Assembly (NCBI GenBank): GCA_947631505.1
Contig: CANRLR010000002.1
Coordinates: 62,001-126,000, forward strand
Direction of reading: 5' to 3'
Source: an uncultured Lachnospiraceae bacterium
Lineage (GTDB): Bacteria; Bacillota; Clostridia; Lachnospirales; Lachnospiraceae
Length of the DNA: 64,000 bases
A program made the position numbers and the translations under genes. This document shows positions 2,759 to 14,170 of this stretch, one piece after another. Below the pieces are notes generated by a model. The model made no database searches. It worked only from the letters and a program-made list of their open reading frames with translations, and had not been told where the DNA came from. Every line of letters starts with the position of its first letter. The first letter of the stretch is position 1.

Positions 2759-2808
2759 AGGCGTAAAACGATAATTAGATGAACGGACATCGTTTTACGC
2801 TTATTTTT
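2759..2808 (+). terminator. Intrinsic terminator of the flagellar operon
   Basis: A 12-bp perfect stem (GCGTAAAACGAT at 2761-2772 with ATCGTTTTACGC at 2789-2800) with a 16-base loop is followed by TTATTTTTT. It separates csrA from the downstream Tad-like operon, so that operon probably has its own transcription start. A TATAAT lies at 2852-2857, but no good -35 box is visible 17 bases upstream of it. Confidence 0.88.
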
Positions 2809-2925
2809 TGTTATTTTCTACGAAATTTCCAATGTTCTTTTGTTACTTTTTTATAATTTACAAAAAGGCAGTTCAGTGATATGATTGAGCCATTCCACCC
2901 AAAAAGGAAAAAAGGAGGTGTGAGG

Positions 2926-3759
2926 GTGAAGGTTGCTTTTTGGAGCAACGCACGGGGGAAGTCATGTGTCACAAGCAATTTGGCTTGTATCAGTGTATTA
3001 TCAATTCTAAGTTCCGATCGTCTGGATAAAAAGACGATTATTTTCGAGAATCATCAGAATATTATTAATCTGGGCAATGTTTTAATCAGCCCCAATTCAA
3101 AAAATGAAGTAAGAGAAAAAAATCATTATTGTGTGGAGCAGGGACTTTCTAAAGTGCTTTGCCATATGGAAAATAGGAAAGAACTTTCAAAGGAAGAGCT
3201 TTTCCGCTATTCAGAACATTATTTAGGAAAGCAATTATTTTATCTTTCTAACGGCGGAGTGCGAAATGCCGATGTATTAGAATACCAATTGGAACGGGAG
3301 TGCATTCAGACAATGCAGTGTCTGGAAAAGTATAGTAACCGGATATTTGTCGATACAGCAACAACGGCACTCATCAGTTCCCGTAAAATATTGCGGCAGG
3401 CCGATGTGGTTGTGGTGAACCTAAGTCAGAATCATTCTATGCTGGAACATTTTTTCGGAAACTACTCTTCGATTCAGAGCAAAGCCTTTTATATCATTGG
3501 AAATTATGATGAAGAGGTGAATTTAAGCCGGGGGACAATTATGCGGCAGTATCATATTCCAGGGCGGCAAATTGCTGTGATTCCACACTGTGCACAGTTC
3601 TCAGATGCATTGTCTGCCGGAACGACCATTCCCTTTTTACTTGGCAATTATTACTGCGATGAAAAGAACCCTAATTATCATTTTATACAGGGGGCAAAAG
3701 AAGCAGTACAGTTATTTGAAAACCACTTACAGACTGTTGAGGAAGGGAGATGTTTGTAG
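2926..3759 (+). CDS. TadZ/MinD-like ATPase of a Tad-like pilus operon
   Basis: About 277 residues. The N-terminus MKVAFWSNARGKSCVTSNL (residues 1-19) has the position and shape of a deviant Walker A loop of the MinD/ParA/TadZ class, but the canonical KGGxGKT is changed to SNARGKS, so nucleotide binding may be altered. Further on, DVVVVNLSQ and FYIIGNYD resemble the later strands of the Rossmann-like fold. The chosen GTG start lies five bases after a perfect AAAGGAGGTG; an upstream ATG at 2881 would add 15 residues without a good ribosome site. TadZ-type proteins localise Tad pilus machines. A TadA-type ATPase and a TadB/C-like protein follow, which supports that role. Function is inferred from context and weak motif similarity. 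Confidence 0.6.
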   Translation: MKVAFWSNARGKSCVTSNLACISVLSILSSDRLDKKTIIFENHQNIINLGNVLISPNSKNEVREKNHYCVEQGLSKVLCHMENRKELSKEELFRYSEHYLGKQLFYLSNGGVRNADVLEYQLERECIQTMQCLEKYSNRIFVDTATTALISSRKILRQADVVVVNLSQNHSMLEHFFGNYSSIQSKAFYIIGNYDEEVNLSRGTIMRQYHIPGRQIAVIPHCAQFSDALSAGTTIPFLLGNYYCDEKNPNYHFIQGAKEAVQLFENHLQTVEEGRCL

Positions 3760-3760
3760 A

Positions 3761-5161
3761 ATGAGAGGTGTAAAATACCGGGTTTTTCTTGTGATTTTCA
3801 TAATTCTTAGCATGGGAATGAAGAGGATTTATACAAAATGTGTTTATGCGGACACAGGGGTATCGGATTTTGCTGCATTAAAAGCGATATTGGAGCAGGG
3901 TGGAATGGAATCGGTATCGCTCTTAGCAGATATTCCCTTAGAAGATGAAATTCGGGTGAGAGGCTGTAAGACAATTGTCGGAAAGGGGCATATGTTATTC
4001 CGGATATCAGACCATCATAAAAATCTGTTTGCGGTAGAAGATGCAAAACTGACAATTCAAAATGTGTGTATTACAGGAAAGAAAGAGAGACAAAAAGAGA
4101 CCGTGACCGCTTTTGGGATAGGAAAAAAAGGAATTGTGGAGATGGATGGTGGAGAACTGACCGAACATTATAATGCAGCAGGCGGACCGGCTGTGAGGAT
4201 TGAACCGGGTGGTCGTTTTGAGATAAAAGCCGGAATCATTCAAAACAATAAAGCGATTGCTACAGGGAAGAGAAAAGGCAGAGATGCCAGAGGCGGCGCT
4301 ATTGCAAATCAGGGTAAAGTTTTATTGACAGGTGGAATCCTGAGCCACAACGAAGCGATAGGAGAAACGAGCGGTTCTGTAAATTATGGCGGTATTGGAG
4401 GAATGCTTTACAATCAAGGAGAATGTGTGATAGGGAAAGCGGTAATTAAAGACAATCAGGCAACAACATCAGGAATGGATATGTATCATGAAAAGGAAGC
4501 GGTATGCCGGACAATAAAAGAGAATGGTAATTTGTCATCAAAAGTGCAGTCGGTGAAAGAAGCAGAAGATGGAGAGGAAGAGAGAACAAAAGTAACAGAA
4601 AGGGAAGAAAAAACAGTAATTCGACAAAGCAAAAAGAAGAAAAAGGAGGATGAGAGAGGGAAGCCCGCAAAAAGAGAAGAGCGGAGAAAGGAAAAAGGGG
4701 CAGGAGAAAAAAACCGGAATAAGAAAAAGACTGGTCATATAACAATGTCTGGGAGTGAAAGATATTTTTTTCTGTGGGAGGTAAGAGGATTTTCCGAATC
4801 AGACTGGAGCCAGAAATTGAGACAAGGAGAAAAAAAATTGAGAACAGATTTTAAACTGCAGTGGAATTGGAATGGGCTGTTGGCAAATAAGCAGGGGAAA
4901 TATATGGTTCAGGTAATGACAAAAAAGGGGAAAAAGGTAAAAATCCCCGTGACAATTGTACCAGAGGCGTATGAGAAAAAAGACCGGGCTTATTTGATAC
5001 GGTTTTATAAGCCGAAAGAAAAAAGTGGGGAAAAGCAGACATGGCATTTTCAAAGTAAGGACATAAAAGCGGTAAAGGATTATTTGCGACAGCAGGAAAA
5101 TCCCCTTTCGGGAGAGGAAAACCAAAATTTCTACAGAGAGTTTGCCGGCTGTCTGAAATAA
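3761..5161 (+). CDS. Secreted beta-helix protein with Lys/Glu-rich linker, function unknown
   Basis: A 466-residue protein that I cannot assign to a named family. Residues 1-32 form a signal or anchor segment (basic start, VFLVIFIILSMGM core, possible cleavage after CVYA). Residues about 40-260 read as a parallel beta-helix: repeated Gly/Asn turns such as GGAIANQGKVLLTGGILSHN and NYGGIGGMLYNQGE resemble pectate-lyase or polymorphic-autotransporter rungs. Residues about 265-325 are a highly charged Lys/Glu/Arg linker. The C-terminal 130 residues (FFLWEVRGF, GKYMVQVMTKKGKKVKIPVTIV) look like a beta-sandwich. It starts one base after the stop of the TadZ-like gene, so the two are co-translated. 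A surface or pilus-associated role is inferred from the operon only. Confidence 0.55.
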   Translation: MRGVKYRVFLVIFIILSMGMKRIYTKCVYADTGVSDFAALKAILEQGGMESVSLLADIPLEDEIRVRGCKTIVGKGHMLFRISDHHKNLFAVEDAKLTIQNVCITGKKERQKETVTAFGIGKKGIVEMDGGELTEHYNAAGGPAVRIEPGGRFEIKAGIIQNNKAIATGKRKGRDARGGAIANQGKVLLTGGILSHNEAIGETSGSVNYGGIGGMLYNQGECVIGKAVIKDNQATTSGMDMYHEKEAVCRTIKENGNLSSKVQSVKEAEDGEEERTKVTEREEKTVIRQSKKKKKEDERGKPAKREERRKEKGAGEKNRNKKKTGHITMSGSERYFFLWEVRGFSESDWSQKLRQGEKKLRTDFKLQWNWNGLLANKQGKYMVQVMTKKGKKVKIPVTIVPEAYEKKDRAYLIRFYKPKEKSGEKQTWHFQSKDIKAVKDYLRQQENPLSGEENQNFYREFAGCLK

Positions 5162-5202
5162 GCAAAGACAATGAATACGCAAGAGATCGGAGGGAAAATG
5201 AA

Positions 5203-6258
5203 TTGAATGAGTTTCAGAAAAAGTATTTGTTAAAAAGGCAGGATTATGGTATTTTGTATCCCTATGTTGTGTCAGAATCCGTGACAGATATTAACTGGAA
5301 TGGAAGACAGTTATGGATTGATGATTTAGAGAAAGGCCGCTATATGGCAAATGAAATATTATCGGATGCTTTTGTAGAGCGGTTTACACTCTTGTTGTCA
5401 AATGTAACCAGTGTTCCCTTAAACCGGATGAATCCGGTACTTGAGGCGGAAACGGAAGAACTTCGGATAAGTGTAGTACATTCCTGTGTAGCTCATTCTG
5501 GTGCTACGATATCACTTCGGAAAATTCCGGCTGTGAGAAGATTGGAAAAAAGTGAAATGGTACAAAGTGGTTACTGTAGTGAGGAGATATGTAATTTCCT
5601 AATCAATTGCATTCAGGCTCATTGTTCCATTGCAATCTGTGGTTTACCGGGCTCAGGAAAAACAGAGCTGCTTAAATTTCTCACAAGATTTATTCCGGCA
5701 ACGGAAAGAGTCATTACGATTGAAGATACTTTGGAGATACATTATCAGAAAATTAATCCCAATAAAGATTGTGTAGAGATGAAGGTGGCAGAAAATTTTT
5801 CCTACACAGAGGCAATAAAAGCCTGTCTCCGTCAGTTGCCCAAATGGATTCTTTTGTCGGAAGCGCGTTCCGAAGAGGTACGGTATCTGCTGGAATCTCT
5901 CAGTACCGGGACAAATGGCATTACGACGCTGCATACAGATGACGTCAGAAACATTCCGGATCGAATAAAAAATATGGCGGGCGGGGCAGAGGATTTAGTC
6001 CGAATTGAAAATGACACCTATCGCTTTCTTGATATTGGAATTTTAGTGAAAAGTACCGTGGATGAGGAAGGTAAAATTCGGAGATTTATTGATCAAGTCG
6101 GCATTTTTGACCGTTATGGAAAAGACTGGAGCCAAACAATAAATGAAATTGTAATGGTGGCAGAAGAGGGAAAAATTGTATGCCGTAAATTGCCGGTAAA
6201 TGTTAAGAGAAAGTTTGAGGAGGCGGGTATCTATCATCCATTGGGGGTGGTAAAGTGA
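5203..6258 (+). CDS. TadA/CpaF-type secretion ATPase
   Basis: A 351-residue hexameric-type ATPase of the TadA/CpaF/VirB11 family. Visible motifs: Walker A GLPGSGKT at 147-154, Asp-box TIEDTLEIHY at 172-181, Walker B ILLSEARSEE at 216-225, and His-box TTLHTDD at 241-247. It would power assembly of a Tad (Flp, type IVc) pilus or pseudopilus from the cytoplasmic face. It is shorter than typical CpaF proteins (about 400-480), with a reduced N-terminal domain. The start is a TTG eight bases after GGAGGG; no ATG in frame gives a full-length product. The next gene overlaps its stop codon, so translation is coupled. Confidence 0.85.
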   Translation: MNEFQKKYLLKRQDYGILYPYVVSESVTDINWNGRQLWIDDLEKGRYMANEILSDAFVERFTLLLSNVTSVPLNRMNPVLEAETEELRISVVHSCVAHSGATISLRKIPAVRRLEKSEMVQSGYCSEEICNFLINCIQAHCSIAICGLPGSGKTELLKFLTRFIPATERVITIEDTLEIHYQKINPNKDCVEMKVAENFSYTEAIKACLRQLPKWILLSEARSEEVRYLLESLSTGTNGITTLHTDDVRNIPDRIKNMAGGAEDLVRIENDTYRFLDIGILVKSTVDEEGKIRRFIDQVGIFDRYGKDWSQTINEIVMVAEEGKIVCRKLPVNVKRKFEEAGIYHPLGVVK

Positions 6259-7565
6259 GAGACAGTGTGAAGAAATTGGCGGCAATGCTGCTTGGATGGA
6301 CAGTAGCTGTTTATGGATTTGCATATTTCTTTGAGCTATTTTTTGCGGGAGCTTTGGGATTGTATTTAAGTGGAACTGTGGCGGTTTCTGTCATTTGGTA
6401 TAGCGGGATACGGAGAAAGAGGTCAGAAACAGCATTTTATGATATGACGGAGTATTTGGAACAATTATTATGCTCGTATGGGCGGGAAAAGACAATATTG
6501 GATTGTCTGGGGGATTGTCTGGTTCTGTTTCCTGAAAAAAGTCCGATGAGGAAGGTGTTAAAAAGAGCTGTATACAAGCTGCGTTCCGGTGAAGGAAATG
6601 AGGATGAGTCTGTACTATCAGCGTCATTTCAAAGCATTTATGAAAAGTATCCGAATAAGAGACTAAGGCTTGTACATACATTTATAGAGAATGTATCCCA
6701 AATGGGTGGAGAATATAAAGAATCATTGGAAATACTTTTGCGGGACTTACATTTATGGAAACAAAGAGTGATTTTACATCAGAAGAAGAAACAGACGATT
6801 TGTCAAGAAGGAACGTTGTATCTGTTCCTTGCTGTTCTTCTCTGTTATCTTTCCAGAATACTTATGCCGGATTCGATAATAAAATCCCTGATTTGTTCTG
6901 TTTGGTATCAGAGCTCAACGGTTCTGACAGGAATCTTGCTTTTGCTGGGAGAAGCCGCATTCTGCCTGTATTTATCGGGAAACTGGTTTGAAACCTTGAA
7001 GAATAAGAGTAAAAAGAAATGGAAGCAGTTACAAAGGAATTATGACTATGTGATGAAACATTCATCCGGCATAAGGTTCTATCAGGCAAAACAGGTATGC
7101 AGACAGGAAATCGAAAAGGAATTTCCTTATTGGATCTTGACGGTTACATTATATCTGCAGGAGGATAGTGTGTATCAGTCAATTCTACATTCACTGGTGG
7201 GACAGGAAAATTTTTTTAAGCATGAAATTGAACAGTTACTTATGAGAATTTATGATCATCCAGATGATATTCAATCTTACAGCAAATTTTGTGAGTTTGC
7301 GGATATTCCGGAATTGCATACAATAATGAAATTATTGTACGCCGTAAACATAAATGGAGTGCAGGATACGAAAAGGCAGGTTCTGTTTTTAGTAGAACAA
7401 AATAGTTTTATTGTGAATCAGACAGAAGAAATACGATTGTCCCATAAGCTTTCTGTCGTAGAGCTTTTTAAACAATTCCCAATGGTAATCGGAGGATTGA
7501 AAGTTGTTTTTGATTTACTTTTATTCCTTGTTATTTCGATGAGAAATATGCAGAATTTTTTGTAA
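6255..7565 (+). CDS. TadB/TadC-like inner-membrane platform protein
   Basis: A 436-residue membrane protein with two hydrophobic segments near the N-terminus (about 8-50), two near 188-240 and one at the C-terminus (about 405-430), separated by large cytosolic helical parts. This is the topology expected of T2SSF-domain platform proteins. Tad loci usually encode two such proteins, TadB and TadC; here a single gene follows the TadA ATPase, so it may be a fused or single-platform form. It starts with GTG overlapping the ATPase stop (GTGA), so translation is coupled. I see no diagnostic motif beyond topology and position, so the family call rests on context. Confidence 0.6.
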   Translation: MRDSVKKLAAMLLGWTVAVYGFAYFFELFFAGALGLYLSGTVAVSVIWYSGIRRKRSETAFYDMTEYLEQLLCSYGREKTILDCLGDCLVLFPEKSPMRKVLKRAVYKLRSGEGNEDESVLSASFQSIYEKYPNKRLRLVHTFIENVSQMGGEYKESLEILLRDLHLWKQRVILHQKKKQTICQEGTLYLFLAVLLCYLSRILMPDSIIKSLICSVWYQSSTVLTGILLLLGEAAFCLYLSGNWFETLKNKSKKKWKQLQRNYDYVMKHSSGIRFYQAKQVCRQEIEKEFPYWILTVTLYLQEDSVYQSILHSLVGQENFFKHEIEQLLMRIYDHPDDIQSYSKFCEFADIPELHTIMKLLYAVNINGVQDTKRQVLFLVEQNSFIVNQTEEIRLSHKLSVVELFKQFPMVIGGLKVVFDLLLFLVISMRNMQNFL

Positions 7566-7606
7566 TATGAAGGGGAAACCGTAGAGCAGAAAGAAAGGAG
7601 AGGAAA

Positions 7607-7711
7607 ATGGAGAGCAAGTTCTGTTTGTGGGGGGAGTGGGTGTCAATTATGATTTTTGGGATATTAATTCGGCTGGTATATCAATGGCTATTTAATGAAA
7701 TAGGAGGATAG
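7607..7711 (+). CDS. 34-residue membrane peptide, candidate mini-pilin
   Basis: A very short gene preceded by AAAGGAGAGG and followed, three bases later, by the next coding region. The product starts MESKFCLWGEWVSIMIFGI and is essentially one hydrophobic helix (SIMIFGILIRLVYQWLF) with a Gly-Glu pair just before it. Flp pilins of Tad systems are also tiny, with a Gly cleavage site, a Glu at mature position 5 and a hydrophobic helix. The Gly-Glu spacing here does not match that rule, so a pilin role is only a suggestion from size, topology and operon position. It could also be an assembly peptide. The good ribosome site and tight packing argue that it is translated. Confidence 0.5.
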   Translation: MESKFCLWGEWVSIMIFGILIRLVYQWLFNEIGG

Positions 7712-7713
7712 AG

Positions 7714-8136
7714 GTGAAAAGCTTATATACCAATTATATAATAGGAATTTTGTCAGCAGCAGTTATTCTTTTGGCAGCAGGATTGTCACTAAAAAAGGAA
7801 TGGATACAAACCGGGATTGCCAAGAATCCGAAACAGAAGCAGCCTGCGTCAATTGTACTTACCTGGGAGAAACCAACACTGGAAACAAAAGATCAACGCT
7901 TTTCAATCCAAGACCGTATTTTCGTTCCGGAACTTGCAAAGGCAAGAGATTTTGATGGAGCAGATCTGACCAATCGGATTCATTACTATGATGAAAAGGG
8001 AGAAGAGATCTCCGGTGAATGGACCGTTCAGAAGCCAGGAATCTACCAGCTTCAGGTATTGGTGGAGAGCCCCCTTACAAAGCGGGAGAATAGAAAGACG
8101 ATGCTTGTTCTCGTTGATGGGGGGATGGGGAAATGA
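7714..8136 (+). CDS. Membrane-anchored Ig-like (DUF5011-type) protein of the Tad-like operon
   Basis: A 140-residue protein: a short basic start, one transmembrane helix (about 8-26, YIIGILSAAVILLAAGLSL) and an external region ending in a bacterial Ig-like fold. The pattern ARDFDGADLTNRIHYYDEKG ... PGIYQLQVLVES is the signature of DUF5011/Cry22Aa-type Ig-like domains, which occur in many Gram-positive surface proteins. The start is GTG, placed by GGAGG in the preceding gene's stop region. Its last codons overlap the next start (ATGA). It is probably a minor structural component on the outer face of the membrane; the exact function is unknown. Confidence 0.6.
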   Translation: MKSLYTNYIIGILSAAVILLAAGLSLKKEWIQTGIAKNPKQKQPASIVLTWEKPTLETKDQRFSIQDRIFVPELAKARDFDGADLTNRIHYYDEKGEEISGEWTVQKPGIYQLQVLVESPLTKRENRKTMLVLVDGGMGK

Positions 8137-8465
8137 AGACGTTCGGAATTGTTAGTCATTTTGTGCTCTATTTATTTTTAATGCTGCTGATGTGGGTGGG
8201 AGTAGCTTATGTTTCTCAAAATATTTATTATAGCAATGCCTGTCGGTTTTATCGTAATGTAGTAACGCGAATGGAAGAACAAGATTATGATTCTGCCGTA
8301 TTGGAAGAATGCCGTCAGGCGGCAAAAGATAACGGCTATATTCTTACCGTAGATCTGTATGAGAGGGAGGGGAAAAAGACAGCAAAGGTTGTTATGGATA
8401 TGATCTATGTTTTTCCCATTATTCAGGAGGAACGGCATTATACCATCGAAGGATATGCCAGATAG
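8133..8465 (+). CDS. Single-TM pseudopilin-like protein (first of two)
   Basis: A 110-residue protein with an N-terminal hydrophobic helix (about 9-28, FVLYLFLMLLMWVGVAYVSQ) followed by a soluble domain of about 80 residues (ACRFYRNVVTRMEEQDYDSAVLEECRQAAKDNGYILTV...). TadE/TadF-type pseudopilins have this architecture. There is no obvious prepilin peptidase site, and I do not recognise a specific family. It overlaps the preceding Ig-like gene by four bases (ATGA), which indicates translational coupling. Position between the machine genes and the adhesin suggests a structural subunit; this is inference. Confidence 0.5.
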   Translation: MKTFGIVSHFVLYLFLMLLMWVGVAYVSQNIYYSNACRFYRNVVTRMEEQDYDSAVLEECRQAAKDNGYILTVDLYEREGKKTAKVVMDMIYVFPIIQEERHYTIEGYAR

Positions 8466-8474
8466 GAGGCCTAT

Positions 8475-8846
8475 GTGAAAACTGTAATGATTACTCTCAT
8501 TGGAGTAAGTTCGATCGTATGGATTATTATGACACAGAGCAGTATTAATGTTGAAAATATAGGGAGAGAAGAAATCTCGGATTCATTGGCATTTGCCATG
8601 ACGCAGACAATGCAGGAATTAGCAGAGAACAGTCAAACGGCAATCAGAAACAAAAATGAAATGATGGCAATGTTTCTACAGGAAATGATTGCCAGAGTGG
8701 ATGAAGAAATTGACCTGACCGTTATCTCACATGAGTGTGATTATGAAAAAGGGATTATGGATATTGAAGCAGTGGGGAAATTGACCTTACCGGGAAACCG
8801 GATCAAAAAAGTATCGGTCAGGCGTTGTATGAAACTGGAAAAATAA
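8475..8846 (+). CDS. Single-TM pseudopilin-like protein (second of two)
   Basis: A 123-residue protein beginning MKTVMITLIGVSSIVWIIMTQ, a hydrophobic N-terminal helix, followed by a long amphipathic helix rich in Gln, Glu and Met (SDSLAFAMTQTMQELAENSQ, about 37-56) and a small beta-rich tail that includes Cys residues at about 86 and 118. This resembles TadE/TadF-like minor pilins in layout, but no family motif is certain. The start is GTG after AGGAGG. The next gene encodes the giant adhesin 22 bases downstream. Confidence 0.5.
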   Translation: MKTVMITLIGVSSIVWIIMTQSSINVENIGREEISDSLAFAMTQTMQELAENSQTAIRNKNEMMAMFLQEMIARVDEEIDLTVISHECDYEKGIMDIEAVGKLTLPGNRIKKVSVRRCMKLEK

Positions 8847-8868
8847 AAACAAAAGAAAGGATAATGTT

Positions 8869-11800
8869 ATGAAAAGAAAATGGAAAAAATGGTTATCGGT
8901 CGTTTTAACGGCTGCCTTTATAGCTGGTCTTTATCCGGTGAACGTAGCAGAAATTCAAGCGGCTTCCGCTGCCGTATCCTTATCAAACTTAGGAAAAATA
9001 GGCTCGCTAAAGGTAGGGAAGAAAACAAAGAAAGGGAACTGGTGGAAGATGCATATTGGCGGTGAAGATGCTTTTTGCATGACATTGGGATATACTTGTC
9101 ATACGGGTGACCGTTATCAGTCTTCCAGTACAACATATAAAAGTACAGATGCCGGTATCAAAGGGAAAAAAGCATTGGTTGGGTATTGGTATGATAAGGT
9201 GCAGAAACAAAGTAATACCGCTTTTATTATGGCACAGGCCTTATTTTGGGGACTGGAAGAGGGAGAAACTTCAGAAAGCAAATTGAAATCCATTATAAAA
9301 ACAGTAAAAGAAAATACAGGAATGTTTTCCGGTAAATCAGCGTCCCTGTTATATGAGGATATTTTTGAGAGAAGTGATGCTGTGAGCATTTCTGTTTTAG
9401 AATGGAAGCATAATGGCTCCGGTGCAAAAAGACAGGAACTTTTGGCAGTAAAGGCTTCCGGTGAAAAGGAACCGGAACCAAAATCCATACATATTGATGA
9501 ACGGTATCGTCAGCGAATTAATTTAGAGAAAAAAGATGAATCAGGACAGCCATTGGCAGGGGTCGCATTTTCCGTAGAAGCTGAAAATTTGGATGAACTA
9601 TATGGGCTGACAGTAACAGGAAAGGAAAAAGAGGAAATCAATGGTTTTGTGGGAACCGGTGTAACGAATGTAAACGGAAGATTACAATTTTGTTTTGAAT
9701 ACCGGATTCAGACCAAAGATTATTTTTTTTACCTGCCAAATGAAATTGACGAAATGACGCCAGAGGAGAAGAAGAAAATTTCCCAAAGGCTGGATGAAAA
9801 GGGATATGAACATGCAGATGACCTAACAGAAGATGGGGCAAAAGCAATGATGGAAAAGGACCTAAAGCGTCAGTTGGCAACGATTAAGAATCAATATATA
9901 ATAACAGAAACAAATGCTGGCTCAGACAATTTATTTATCCCTCCGGAATACAAAAACGGAAAAACAATTCAATTGACGGAAGAGGACAGCTGGTTAAAAG
10001 GAATTTCGTCCGGACAGTGGCCGGAAGACGAATTAAAACTTACTGAAAAAAATATGATGGGGCATTGGGAGCATATTATCAATCATTATAAGAAAGTATC
10101 CTTGTCGATTGTGAAAAAGGATGGCTACAGCAAAGATGAAAAGGCTCATGGGGAGGCAACATTAAATGGTGCTGTTTTCCAGCTCTTTCAGGATGCGGGA
10201 TGTACGGTGAGAGCAGTGGTATATGATGAGAAGGGAAGAGAAAAGAAAGCAGATAAATACAGTACGAAAGATGGAATGTTGGAAACGGATTATCTTCGCT
10301 GTGGAACAACGTACTATCTGAAAGAAATCGTGCCACCCGTTGGATACCAAAAGTCTGAGATGATTATGCCGATTACCATTGACGGCAGTGGCTGCACGCA
10401 GGAATTTACAACAGCGGGGAAATCACTTTCCTATAAAAATCAGCCATTATTAGGGAAGATTGCCTTACAAAAGTATTATTCGGAAGGGGAAACCGGACAA
10501 CTGTTTCCGGAAAAAGGAGCAGTTTTTCAGATTTATCTGAAAAAAAGAAACAGTTATGAGAAGGCAGATGATTATGAGAGAGCTCTGCTTGTAACAGATG
10601 AAAAAGGATATGCCTGTACAAAAGAACTGTACATGGGCCGTTATACGGTTCATCAGATCAGTACAGGGGAGCAGGATACCGAGATGACAAAGGATTTTGA
10701 TATAGTTGTTGACGAGCATGGTAAAATCTATCAATTGTCACTCAATAACAAAAATTTCAGTGCCTATTTAAAAATTGTAAAGAAAGATGGAAATACGAAT
10801 AAAACGGTTTTAAAGGCAGGTACTTCCTATCAGATATACCGGTGGAATAAGGAAAAAAATACGGAAGATCTGGTACGGCAGAGTTATGTGGATGGAAAAT
10901 CAATAAAGACAATCGATACGTTTCAGACCGATGAAACGGGTGTTGTCATGACGGTGAAACCATTAAAATCAGGGATATACCGAGTATATGAAAAGGATGC
11001 GGCAGAGGGATATTATATAGGCAGGCCATATATCGAAGTAAAAATTAATAGTAAAGAGGACAATTACAATCAGATGGCAGAAGAGAATGGAAGTCTCTTT
11101 ACAACGGTAGAAGTAGAATATGAAAATAAGGAGACCTATGGAAAGCTTACCTTTGAAAAGGTAGGAGAGCAGCTGGCTGCCTATGAAAAATCCTCCTCAC
11201 ATTTTGTATATGAAAATAAAATGCTAAAAGGTGCCGTTTTTGAAATTTACGCAGAAGAAGAAATTCAAACACCGGATAATCAAGGTGTTGTCCGGTTTAA
11301 AGAAGGGGAAAAAGTAGCAGAGGTAATAACAGGAGAAAAAGTCCTTTTTACAAATAAATGTGAAGGAATCTGTGGCTATGAAAGGGACGGAGAAGGCAGA
11401 ATATCGGTTAAGCTTCCGCTGGGAAAATATAAAGTAATGGAAACTAAAACGGTTTCCGGATATGTTCTGCCGGATAAAGCAGAGTGGGAAATCGAATTTT
11501 CATGGAAGAATAAGGACACCGAACAAGTGATTAATGGAACTGGGGTTACCGGAAAAGACGGTGTGCTGCGAATTCAGAATGAAAGGGCAAAAGCAGAAGT
11601 AGTAATCAACAAAAAAGATGCCGTAAGTAAACTTCCTATTTCAGATGTTATTTTTGGTCTGTACACATCCGATGCCATTTATAATAGCAAAGGAGAAATG
11701 ATTGTTCCGGCGGATACCAAGCTGGAGGAATTAAAGACAGATGCTGCGGGAACGGCAGTATCTGCTTTGGATCTGCCATTGCAGCAAAAGATAGATTCGG

Positions 11801-12825
11801 AAAAGGAAAATACGGGAAACTATTATCTGAAAGAAGAAAGAGTATCCGAGAGCTACTATTTAGAGAGCGGGAAGATACCAGTACAATTAACGTATAAGGA
11901 TGATAAGACATCTGTAGTATCGTGTAAAATTGAAAAAGAAAATATTGCGACCGAGACAGAGATCAGTAAGCTTGCTTTAGTGGGGAGCGGAGAGGTCTCC
12001 GGCTGCAGACTGGAAATAAAGGATAAAGACGAACAGATAATTTGTTCATGGACGTCAGGGGAAAAGGATTCGGTAAAGCTCATTAAAAATGCGGAAGAAA
12101 AAGGATATCAAAATCTAAAGGCGAGGATAACAGAGAATGGAACGCTTTTATTGAGAGGCTTATTCCATGATGAGGAATATTCCTTATCTGAATCCAGACC
12201 GGCAGATGGATATGTCACAGCGGATAAAATATATTTCAAATTGCTTGAAAAAAGAGAGCAGCAAGGGGCAGTCCGAACGGTGGTATCGCGAAAGAATAAA
12301 AAGGGTATTTTTGATGAAATTTCGGACAATCAAGTTATTATGTATGATGATACGACAAAAGTAGAATTCAGTAAACTGGATGATGTAACTGGAACCCCAC
12401 TAGAGGGGGCAGGAATTGTTATATATGACAAGTCAAATAAAAAGGTTGATTCCTTTACAACAAATAAAAAAGAAGCCTCTCTGATCGAAGGAGAACTTGC
12501 GGTGGGTGAGACTTACATTTTCCGGGAAGTGAAAGCTCCAGACGGATATTCTACCAGTGGAGATGTGACAATTACCGTTCAGGATACGGGAGAGATACAA
12601 AAAATAGTAATGTATGATAAAAAAACAGATGAAATTGCGGAGCAGGATACACCAAAAGATTCGGAACATAAAGATAAATCGAAGGTACACATACCAAAAA
12701 AAGTACCGAAAAGTGCAGCGCCTCAAACCGGTGATTCGTTGTTTACTTTCCGCTTTCTGATAACGGCATTATTTTTGTCATTGGCAGGAATCGCGCTGGT
12801 TACAAAAAAGAAAACCATGGTATAG
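8869..12825 (+). CDS. Giant cell-wall adhesin with thioester domain, Cna-B/SpaA repeats and LPxTG-like anchor
   Basis: A 1318-residue surface protein. A signal peptide covers about residues 1-32 (cleavage near EIQAAS). Residues about 35-195 look like a thioester domain: Cys70 in EDAFCMTLG and Gln123 in MAQALFWG are placed like the Cys and Gln that form the intramolecular thioester in Gram-positive adhesins. Seven or eight Cna-B/SpaA-like modules follow (beginning near INLEKKDESG, LSIVKKDG, KIALQKYY, LKIVKKDG, KLTFEKVG, VVINKKDA and VEFSKLDD), several with LKEIVPPVGY- or FREVKAPDGY-type ends typical of Lys-Asn isopeptide domains. The C-terminus has APQTGD, a hydrophobic helix and KKKTMV, an LPxTG-like sortase signal. 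It is the last gene of the Tad-like operon. No sortase gene lies in the window. Confidence 0.85.
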   Translation: MKRKWKKWLSVVLTAAFIAGLYPVNVAEIQAASAAVSLSNLGKIGSLKVGKKTKKGNWWKMHIGGEDAFCMTLGYTCHTGDRYQSSSTTYKSTDAGIKGKKALVGYWYDKVQKQSNTAFIMAQALFWGLEEGETSESKLKSIIKTVKENTGMFSGKSASLLYEDIFERSDAVSISVLEWKHNGSGAKRQELLAVKASGEKEPEPKSIHIDERYRQRINLEKKDESGQPLAGVAFSVEAENLDELYGLTVTGKEKEEINGFVGTGVTNVNGRLQFCFEYRIQTKDYFFYLPNEIDEMTPEEKKKISQRLDEKGYEHADDLTEDGAKAMMEKDLKRQLATIKNQYIITETNAGSDNLFIPPEYKNGKTIQLTEEDSWLKGISSGQWPEDELKLTEKNMMGHWEHIINHYKKVSLSIVKKDGYSKDEKAHGEATLNGAVFQLFQDAGCTVRAVVYDEKGREKKADKYSTKDGMLETDYLRCGTTYYLKEIVPPVGYQKSEMIMPITIDGSGCTQEFTTAGKSLSYKNQPLLGKIALQKYYSEGETGQLFPEKGAVFQIYLKKRNSYEKADDYERALLVTDEKGYACTKELYMGRYTVHQISTGEQDTEMTKDFDIVVDEHGKIYQLSLNNKNFSAYLKIVKKDGNTNKTVLKAGTSYQIYRWNKEKNTEDLVRQSYVDGKSIKTIDTFQTDETGVVMTVKPLKSGIYRVYEKDAAEGYYIGRPYIEVKINSKEDNYNQMAEENGSLFTTVEVEYENKETYGKLTFEKVGEQLAAYEKSSSHFVYENKMLKGAVFEIYAEEEIQTPDNQGVVRFKEGEKVAEVITGEKVLFTNKCEGICGYERDGEGRISVKLPLGKYKVMETKTVSGYVLPDKAEWEIEFSWKNKDTEQVINGTGVTGKDGVLRIQNERAKAEVVINKKDAVSKLPISDVIFGLYTSDAIYNSKGEMIVPADTKLEELKTDAAGTAVSALDLPLQQKIDSEKENTGNYYLKEERVSESYYLESGKIPVQLTYKDDKTSVVSCKIEKENIATETEISKLALVGSGEVSGCRLEIKDKDEQIICSWTSGEKDSVKLIKNAEEKGYQNLKARITENGTLLLRGLFHDEEYSLSESRPADGYVTADKIYFKLLEKREQQGAVRTVVSRKNKKGIFDEISDNQVIMYDDTTKVEFSKLDDVTGTPLEGAGIVIYDKSNKKVDSFTTNKKEASLIEGELAVGETYIFREVKAPDGYSTSGDVTITVQDTGEIQKIVMYDKKTDEIAEQDTPKDSEHKDKSKVHIPKKVPKSAAPQTGDSLFTFRFLITALFLSLAGIALVTKKKTMV

Positions 12826-12859: not shown

Positions 12860-14170
12860 CTATTCCTCGTCCTGCTCTTCATCCTCTTCCATCTGTGGCT
12901 TTAGAATCATGCGGACTTTATCAATTCGATTGCCATCTACTTTTAAAACAGTGTAAGTGGCATAGTCATCTTCTGTTGCTTCTCCGACTTCCGGGAAGTG
13001 CTGGAATAAATTGATTAAATGTCCGGCAATGGAATCATAATCCTCGGATTCCAGTGGAAGTTTTAAATATTCGGAAATGTCTTCTAAGAAGGTGGAGCCA
13101 AGAAGAACATATTCGGTGTCACTGATTTTTTGAATTTCATCTTCTTCATCCTCATCATACTCATCCCGAAGTTCTCCGACAATTTCTTCAATTAAATCTT
13201 CCATCGTAATAAGACCGGCAAGAGCACCATATTCATCCAGTACAACGGTCATTGGAATAGAATCCTTCTGCATCTCCATAAAAAGTTCTGCAACGTTCTT
13301 ATATTCATATGTTACATGAGCCTCACGAATCAAGGTCTTGATGTCCAGCTCGGATTTGTTGCCCTGATAGAATACAATATCCCGCAAATTAATAATTCCA
13401 ATAATGTTATCAATGGTCTCTTCATAAACGGGAATTCTTGAATATTTACTTTCCTTGAATTCGTTCATAAGCTCTTCATATGTGATGTTCGCCTCGACCA
13501 TGGCAATATCCATACGGGGAATCATAACATCTTTGGCAAGAGAATCACCAAAATCTACAATATTAGTAATCATTTGGCGTTCTTCGCTTTCGATTACTCC
13601 TTCCTCATGGCTGACATCTACAAAGGTTCTTAGTTCATCCTCGGTAATAACTGCTGCTTTTTTTGAAGTGTCCACGCGGAGAAGGAAGAGCACGAAACCG
13701 GAAAATTGATTCACGATAAAAATAATCGGTGTCAGTATGTTGGTCAGGAACAGTATAGGGCGGGAGTATAACAGGGCTAACTTCTCCGCCTTTCTGGTAG
13801 CTAGATTTTTCGGTGTGATTTCACCGAAAATCAAAATTAATACTGTCAGAATTCCTGTTGCAATTCCCGCACCAAGACTGGTACTTTCCGCTAATCCCAT
13901 GCGTCTGCAAATGGAAAAAGCATAGGATGTGGAAATCGAGGAAGCGGATAAATTTACAACATTATTACAGATCAATACCGCACTGAGCATTTTTGAAGGC
14001 TCTTCGATTAGTTTTAATACTCGTTTCGCAGATTTGTTCTTTTCTTCTGCCAATGCACGCATCCGAATTTTATTAACGGTAGTAAGTGCTGTTTCTGCAG
14101 AAGAGAAAAAAGCTGATAAAAAAAGTAATATAATAAGAATAATTATATTTACCGCATCACTGGGCCCCAA
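12860..14170 (-). CDS. CNNM/CorC-family membrane protein (HlyC/CorC-like, probable Mg2+ efflux)
   Basis: A 436-residue protein of the CNNM/CorC (UPF0053) family. The N-terminal DUF21 membrane domain (IILIILLFLSAFFSSAETALTTVNK, with the SAFFSSAETA signature) is followed by about three more helices to residue 160, a CBS-domain pair (DVMIPRMDI at about 217; VVLDEYGALAGLITMEDLIEEIVGE at about 308-332), and the C-terminal CorC_HlyC domain (about 350-425). Family members are linked to magnesium or cobalt export. The start is TTG about ten bases from GGAG. It lies 18 bases downstream of the ABC-F gene and is probably cotranscribed with it. Confidence 0.88.
   Translation of the reverse strand: MGPSDAVNIIILIILLFLSAFFSSAETALTTVNKIRMRALAEEKNKSAKRVLKLIEEPSKMLSAVLICNNVVNLSASSISTSYAFSICRRMGLAESTSLGAGIATGILTVLILIFGEITPKNLATRKAEKLALLYSRPILFLTNILTPIIFIVNQFSGFVLFLLRVDTSKKAAVITEDELRTFVDVSHEEGVIESEERQMITNIVDFGDSLAKDVMIPRMDIAMVEANITYEELMNEFKESKYSRIPVYEETIDNIIGIINLRDIVFYQGNKSELDIKTLIREAHVTYEYKNVAELFMEMQKDSIPMTVVLDEYGALAGLITMEDLIEEIVGELRDEYDEDEEDEIQKISDTEYVLLGSTFLEDISEYLKLPLESEDYDSIAGHLINLFQHFPEVGEATEDDYATYTVLKVDGNRIDKVRMILKPQMEEDEEQDEE

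Follow-up and report, generated by a model that had tools for sequence, protein, structure and literature searches.

Nine open reading frames on the forward strand occupy positions 2926-12825 of the window, the 64,000-nucleotide stretch of Lachnospiraceae DNA analysed here, and an ORF scan with translation found internal stops in none of them (Table 1). A previous sequence-only reading of this DNA had described the genes as tightly packed and partly overlapping, which is confirmed by gaps of 1, 41, -4, 41, 2, -4, 9 and 22 nt from gene 1 to gene 9. It had also placed the start of the operon just after the csrA terminator, and a hairpin with a T-run is indeed found there by eye; the terminator scan missed it because its loop exceeds the limit of the scan. 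The promoter-like site that follows is weak, since the promoter scan returned 44 such sites against 36.1 expected by chance. Downstream lies a convergent gene that we take to be CorC/CBS-like; the names of the EYG, P-loop and sortase-tail motifs used below are likewise presumptive.

Table 1. Features of the locus, in coordinates of the window.
Feature	Position	Strand	Basis
Hairpin + T-run at the csrA end, upstream operon border	2761-2809	+	read by eye
Promoter-like site TTTACA-17-TATGAT	2857-2885	+	consensus match only
Gene 1, TadZ/MinD-like by motif (weak), 277 aa	2926-3759	+	motif, no profile match
Gene 2, secreted beta-helix-type, conserved C-terminal domain, 466 aa	3761-5161	+	profiles, relatives, model
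Gene 3, TadA/CpaF-type ATPase without NTD0/NTD1, 351 aa	5203-6258	+	Pfam, phmmer
Gene 4, single platform protein, TadB-like first half, 436 aa	6255-7565	+	homologs, hhalign, model
Gene 5 (p5), single-TM microprotein, 34 aa	7607-7711	+	
Gene 6 (p6), single TM + ectodomain, 140 aa; Ig-like only via relatives	7714-8136	+	
Gene 7 (p7), pseudopilin-like, single-TM, 110 aa	8133-8465	+	profiles
Gene 8 (p8), pseudopilin-like, single-TM, 123 aa	8475-8846	+	profiles
Gene 9, thioester/SpaA/sortase-type adhesin, 1318 aa; optional, slot p8-corC	8869-12825	+	
Convergent CorC/CBS-like gene, downstream border in relatives	12860-14170	-	presumptive name

The assignment of gene 3 as a TadA/CpaF ATPase is firm. 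The T2SSE profile of Pfam matches it with 84.7 bits, phmmer aligns it with CpaF at 4.3e-20 and 2.6e-20 (the best row being a 'Type II secretion system protein', 2oap, at 2.4e-21), and hhalign gives a probability of 99.4% to the canonical TadA of the same genome. The VirB11 profile scores 116.6 bits and the TadA-family profile 108 bits, both below their own cut-offs. Gene 3 aligns from its residue 14 onward to CpaF from residue 147 onward, and the NTD0/NTD1 part of CpaF extends to residue 149 (PMC11300603). Because the alignment begins only there, gene 3 is taken to be without NTD0/NTD1. In a tree of 22 reduced TadA, 50 other TadA-type hits and four ATPases of the window's own genome, all 22 reduced TadA group together on a long branch, with a support of only 62.

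Tad loci normally have two platform genes (PMC6668835). At this locus a tadB and tadC pair was not encountered, and one gene takes its place. That this is a TadB/C-like platform is borne out for its N-terminal half, which matches canonical TadB with an hhalign probability of 83% (alignment versus alignment), but not for its second half, which reaches 2.9% against TadC. TadB was the only alignment matched, and comparison with single canonical sequences by hhalign gave nothing. The window protein itself has no relevant Pfam match, and T2SSF matches two of 41 homologs. The two halves score 0.6% against each other, which gives no support for a duplicated T2SSF fold. The structural model is of high quality (pLDDT 92.2, pTM 0.86), and Foldseek found no match to it at E <= 0.001, the best rows being unrelated, mostly helical proteins.

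The TadZ label of gene 1 is a weak one. Resemblance in motif stands, but no relevant match was found in Pfam, NCBIfam or PDB sequences, hhalign against single canonical sequences gave nothing, and of 18 aligned proteins five have Arg or Ser in place of the lysine of the P-loop-like motif. Gene 1 is present in 23/23 close loci, in 0/57 distant loci and in one of the 35 loci from other genera (L114, 1.5e-12).

Genes 5-8 encode short proteins with one TM each. When seven p6 proteins were scanned, two gave Ig-like matches, two BspA-LRR matches and three, including the window's, no Pfam match; all four matches are below the Pfam cut-offs. The two with BspA-LRR matches (L190:12694-13785, 364 aa; L193:12738-13859, 374 aa) suggest, from their sequences, swapped ectodomains on a pilin-like base. 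By eye, p5-like ORFs are found in 23 of 24 same-genus loci (partial in L069, none in L086). A single-TM protein of ~53-70 aa that starts with MxxF(x)EEYG or similar precedes tadA in 40/55 distant and 8/22 close loci but not in the window, and EYG-type versions of 33-51 aa follow tadBC in many loci. These small-ORF counts come from a regular expression written by hand and combined with a filter for ribosome sites, which missed at least one case (L080/L178). The sub-clade of the window lacks the longer Flp-like protein, the window keeping only p5, and there is therefore no obvious major pilin.

Among the EYG proteins of 18 relatives, Flp1_like matches five (best 2.9e-5) and Flp_Fap four. Flp pilins carry a Glu at +5 behind a Gly (PMC3244431); no such G-x4-E site was seen by eye in the window operon or in the small proteins of the 18 relatives. 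Profile scans found no prepilin peptidase among the nine operon proteins. Three Peptidase_A24 genes lie elsewhere in the same genome, in the canonical Tad locus and close to a PilB-like gene, and such genes occur in 38/39 same-genus genomes. It is therefore conceivable that processing takes place in trans, and the EYG proteins may be cut at the Gly in this way.

How far the machine is conserved was addressed by searching 299 genomes of the family with the window TadA (E <= 1e-40); in this search and the one for the adhesin domain, scoring was limited to the 6 or 10 best candidates per genome. Relatives of the reduced TadA were found in 36 genomes, about one in eight, with a partial match (G045) among them, and lie beside genes for short proteins with one TM and a TadB/C platform encoded by one gene. 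Within the genus, the platform gene is present in 24/39 genomes, the window's included, and canonical-type TadC in 36/39. The surroundings of 23 same-genus loci were fetched beside the window, and all untruncated ones keep the order gene 1-gene 2-tadA-tadBC-p6-p7-p8; the close group (L166-L188) includes L182, apparently G097, from another genus. In 57 distant loci, defined by a TadA identity of 55% or less, tadBC is found in 55, p7 in 53, p8 in 48 and p6 in 36. Profiles built from distant loci only retrieve, among 729 window ORFs, tadBC (3e-85), p7 (7e-24), p8 (5e-24) and p6 (2e-13). A search of 391 genomes of the class gave four matches at about 1e-97 or better, namely the window's own genome, G108 and one each from two other families, and the next match falls at 8e-35. 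The two loci outside the family keep tadBC, p7, p8, EYG proteins and the gene-2 domain. The existence of a reduced Tad-like operon is thus supported.

Adjacency to flagellar genes, which had also been pointed out, is real in the window but not in its relatives, as no homolog of csrA, fliW or flgL was found in 59 fetched loci, some of which are short upstream. A flagellar linkage was rejected for this reason, and the adjacency looks particular to the window's genome.

The start of gene 2 resembles a signal peptide, and its alignment showed no sortase tail. The proposal of a secreted beta-helix protein holds for relatives, since ChW and beta-helix matches are above cut-off in two (L092, L093) of six gene-2-type proteins scanned with Pfam, and the window model is mostly strands over residues 31-260 (pLDDT 67.9), but the window protein itself has no relevant Pfam match. 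As for the rest, L106 has an InlB-like domain, L088 and L064 have sub-threshold matches only, and L120 has nothing. Foldseek with the model returned nothing at E <= 0.001; its best rows, the L. reuteri SRRP (2.2e-2) and a pectate lyase, would fit a beta-helix but prove little.

Built from close relatives, a gene-2 profile matches the large post-p8 protein of other genera, the best five loci (L088, L090-L093) lying at 1e-17 to 1e-30. When a profile of the last 110 residues was iterated four times, 88 ORFs were recovered in 86 of the 139 fetched loci, which combine two overlapping locus sets. By named set, this C-terminal domain is found in 23/23 close loci, a count that is partly circular because the profile was seeded with close-group proteins, in 26/57 distant loci and in 15/35 loci of other genera (L088-L122). 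The distant-only profile of the domain matches 12/22 close gene-2 proteins, with values of 9e-18 to 1e-23 for seven of them and 2e-7 to 9e-4 for the other five, but not the window's own, which is therefore linked via close intermediates. No gene-2 homolog was recognised in 27 of the 57 distant loci, some of them truncated. Gene 2 is the recurring large partner of the machine across Lachnospiraceae. In L206, L208, L216, L218, L242 and others its homolog is located between p7 and p8, so the place of the partner varies by clade. L078 and L185, which seem to be a single record, have gene 2 divided between adjacent ORFs of 542 and 322 aa, both of which match the conserved C-terminal domain.

Gene 9 encodes a 1318-residue cell-wall adhesin, as had been read from the sequence: it has a signal peptide-like start, eight SpaA stretches (Pfam) and a PQTG-TM-KKK tail of the sortase type, and the genome has three sortase genes. 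Cys70 is kept in 30 and Gln123 in 29 of 31 aligned rows, where the window is counted twice and the rows missing Cys or Gln are truncated, and both residues are invariant in 13/13 rows of a second alignment. Gene 9 has no Pfam thioester-domain match. We infer from the conserved pair that a Cys70-Gln123 thioester could bind covalently.

The adhesin had been regarded as the integral last gene of the operon. The same-genus loci show otherwise. It follows p8 in 7/24 of them (the window, L068, L070-L074), its ORF overlapping the end of p8 in L071, L073 and L074 and being cut by contig ends in L068, L071 and L074. In 13 loci (L064-L067, L075, L076, L078-L080, L082-L085) the slot is empty and a corC-like gene comes directly after p8 (-3 to 227 nt). 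Two loci, L077 and L086, have other genes in the slot, and in two (L069, L081) the contig ends after p8. In L086 (8488-11787) a BspA-type LRR surface protein of 1099 aa takes the place of the adhesin. The machine is thus without an adhesin behind it in 15/24 loci, and the adhesin was rejected as an integral machine part; among the 57 distant loci none has it at the machine, as far as the loci reach. When four machine proteins were concatenated for a tree, the adhesin loci came out near each other, with weak backbone support.

Adhesin domains also lie largely away from the machine: a search with the first 200 residues of gene 9 gave 30 matches in 14/39 same-genus genomes, 7 at the machine and 23 elsewhere. 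In G332, whose machine contig stops right after p8, one of the four adhesin-domain matches could belong at the machine. Two of the observations that the previous reading had listed as counting against its proposal were therefore made, machines with no adhesin behind them and adhesin genes at other sites. The window's own genome has a further full copy at C11, with an N-domain 55% identical (L353:1170-6210, or G000:C11:36669-41709; ORF of 1422 aa, overlapping the next ORF, a sortase of 260 aa, by 11 nt); C21 carries a fragment. In the family, 21/299 genomes have the adhesin domain, 36 the machine and six both; of these six, the window's own has the adhesin beside the machine and no other is seen to, though the machine contig of G110 is just 4,245 bases long. 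Adhesin domains are nevertheless enriched with the machine: they occur in 13/24 same-genus genomes with it versus 1/15 without (Fisher 0.005, kinship ignored; the single machine-less genome has a weak match with stops) and, among good genomes, in 9/17 versus 1/9 (p 0.09), and in the family the machine is found in 6/21 adhesin-domain genomes versus 30/278 others (p 0.03). This enrichment leaves room for a functional link. The window shows no internal terminator ahead of the adhesin, and with the overlap with p8 in three relatives this makes co-expression with the machine likely in the window's sub-clade. The presence of the adhesin between p8 and corC is optional.

We consider it rather probable that genes 1-8 encode a reduced, divergent Tad-type filament or pseudopilus machine that presents the gene-2 protein, and that gene 9 is an adhesin captured in the 3' slot. 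The cytoplasmic ATPase, the one platform protein and the short single-TM pilin- or pseudopilin-like proteins would build a filament, thin or short, or else a pseudopilus in the single membrane, and this would hold or present the Sec-secreted gene-2 protein at the cell surface. The sortase-type thioester adhesin would have entered the p8-corC slot in one sub-clade, probably as a co-transcribed passenger. If the machine assembles anything, it would rank with the smallest of the type IV filament machines; such a system would bear on the need for pilin processing and for a split platform, and would put a name to a recurring surface protein of gut Lachnospiraceae. It is possible, but doubtful, that the locus represents a separate type IV filament lineage, nearly restricted to Lachnospiraceae, with a filament built from unprocessed EYG Flp-like microproteins, one fused platform, an ATPase without NTD1, the modular gene-2 protein as dedicated tip cargo and, in the window clade, a co-expressed thioester harpoon.

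Other explanations are less probable. The homology of TadA, the near-universal Peptidase_A24 genes of the genus and the reduced Tad machineries known in monoderms (PMC6916266) would also be expected of a standard Tad pilus locus, changed by no more than divergence and using a peptidase in trans. We find this unlikely, as canonical-type TadC coexists in nearly all same-genus genomes, the reduced TadA stand apart on their long branch, modest though its support is, TadA matches in the class drop from 1e-97 to 1e-35, and the window clade has one platform gene instead of two and no pilin of Flp length. In that clade the small proteins are all pseudopilin-like and a normal major pilin is missing, which, together with the signal peptide-like start of gene 2 and a sortase tail not seen in its alignment, could point to a secretion device, in which a TadA-driven short pseudopilus would expel the gene-2 protein through the wall in the manner of type II secretion; this is about as unlikely, given the longer Flp-like proteins of distant loci and that a secreted protein of a monoderm needs no second membrane to be crossed. 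The least likely of these readings, by a small margin, is that the apparatus assembles or displays the adhesin as its dedicated substrate. It would account for the 22 nt spacing, the ORF overlaps, the shared slot in seven loci and the enrichment of the domain in machine-bearing same-genus genomes, but the adhesin is lacking behind most same-genus machines and all distant ones, most of its domain matches lie away from the machine, and its signal peptide-like start, sortase-type tail and the three sortase genes argue against such a role.

We recognised no description of this operon in the open-access PMC literature, to which the search was confined. The locus shares with the Tad (Flp, type IVc) pilus a TadA-type ATPase, a TadB-like platform half, short single-TM proteins and a tight single operon, and differs in having one platform gene, no prepilin peptidase, a TadA without NTD0/NTD1, no G-x4-E pilin and a recurring large surface protein. 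A canonical Tad locus coexists in the same genome (G000:C6, L163), where the tad gene names are our own presumptive reading. Both loci have TadA, a platform and a small Flp-like protein, whereas the canonical one has two platform genes and two Peptidase_A24 genes. Like the operon in the window, the 'No Flp' loci of Clostridia are tad-like, lack an apparent prepilin signal and are distant from other tad genes (PMC3244431); they would differ in containing tadC, tadV, tadZ and rcpC, by their authors' account. Thioester (TIE) adhesins such as SfbI resemble gene 9 in an N-terminal Cys/Gln domain, isopeptide-type repeats and a wall-anchor tail (PMC4450167), but the window adhesin, with a predicted thioester, sits behind a Tad-like operon in one sub-clade. 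From these comparisons of sequence and gene content, we read the machine as a reduced Tad-type system that is distinct from the canonical Tad.
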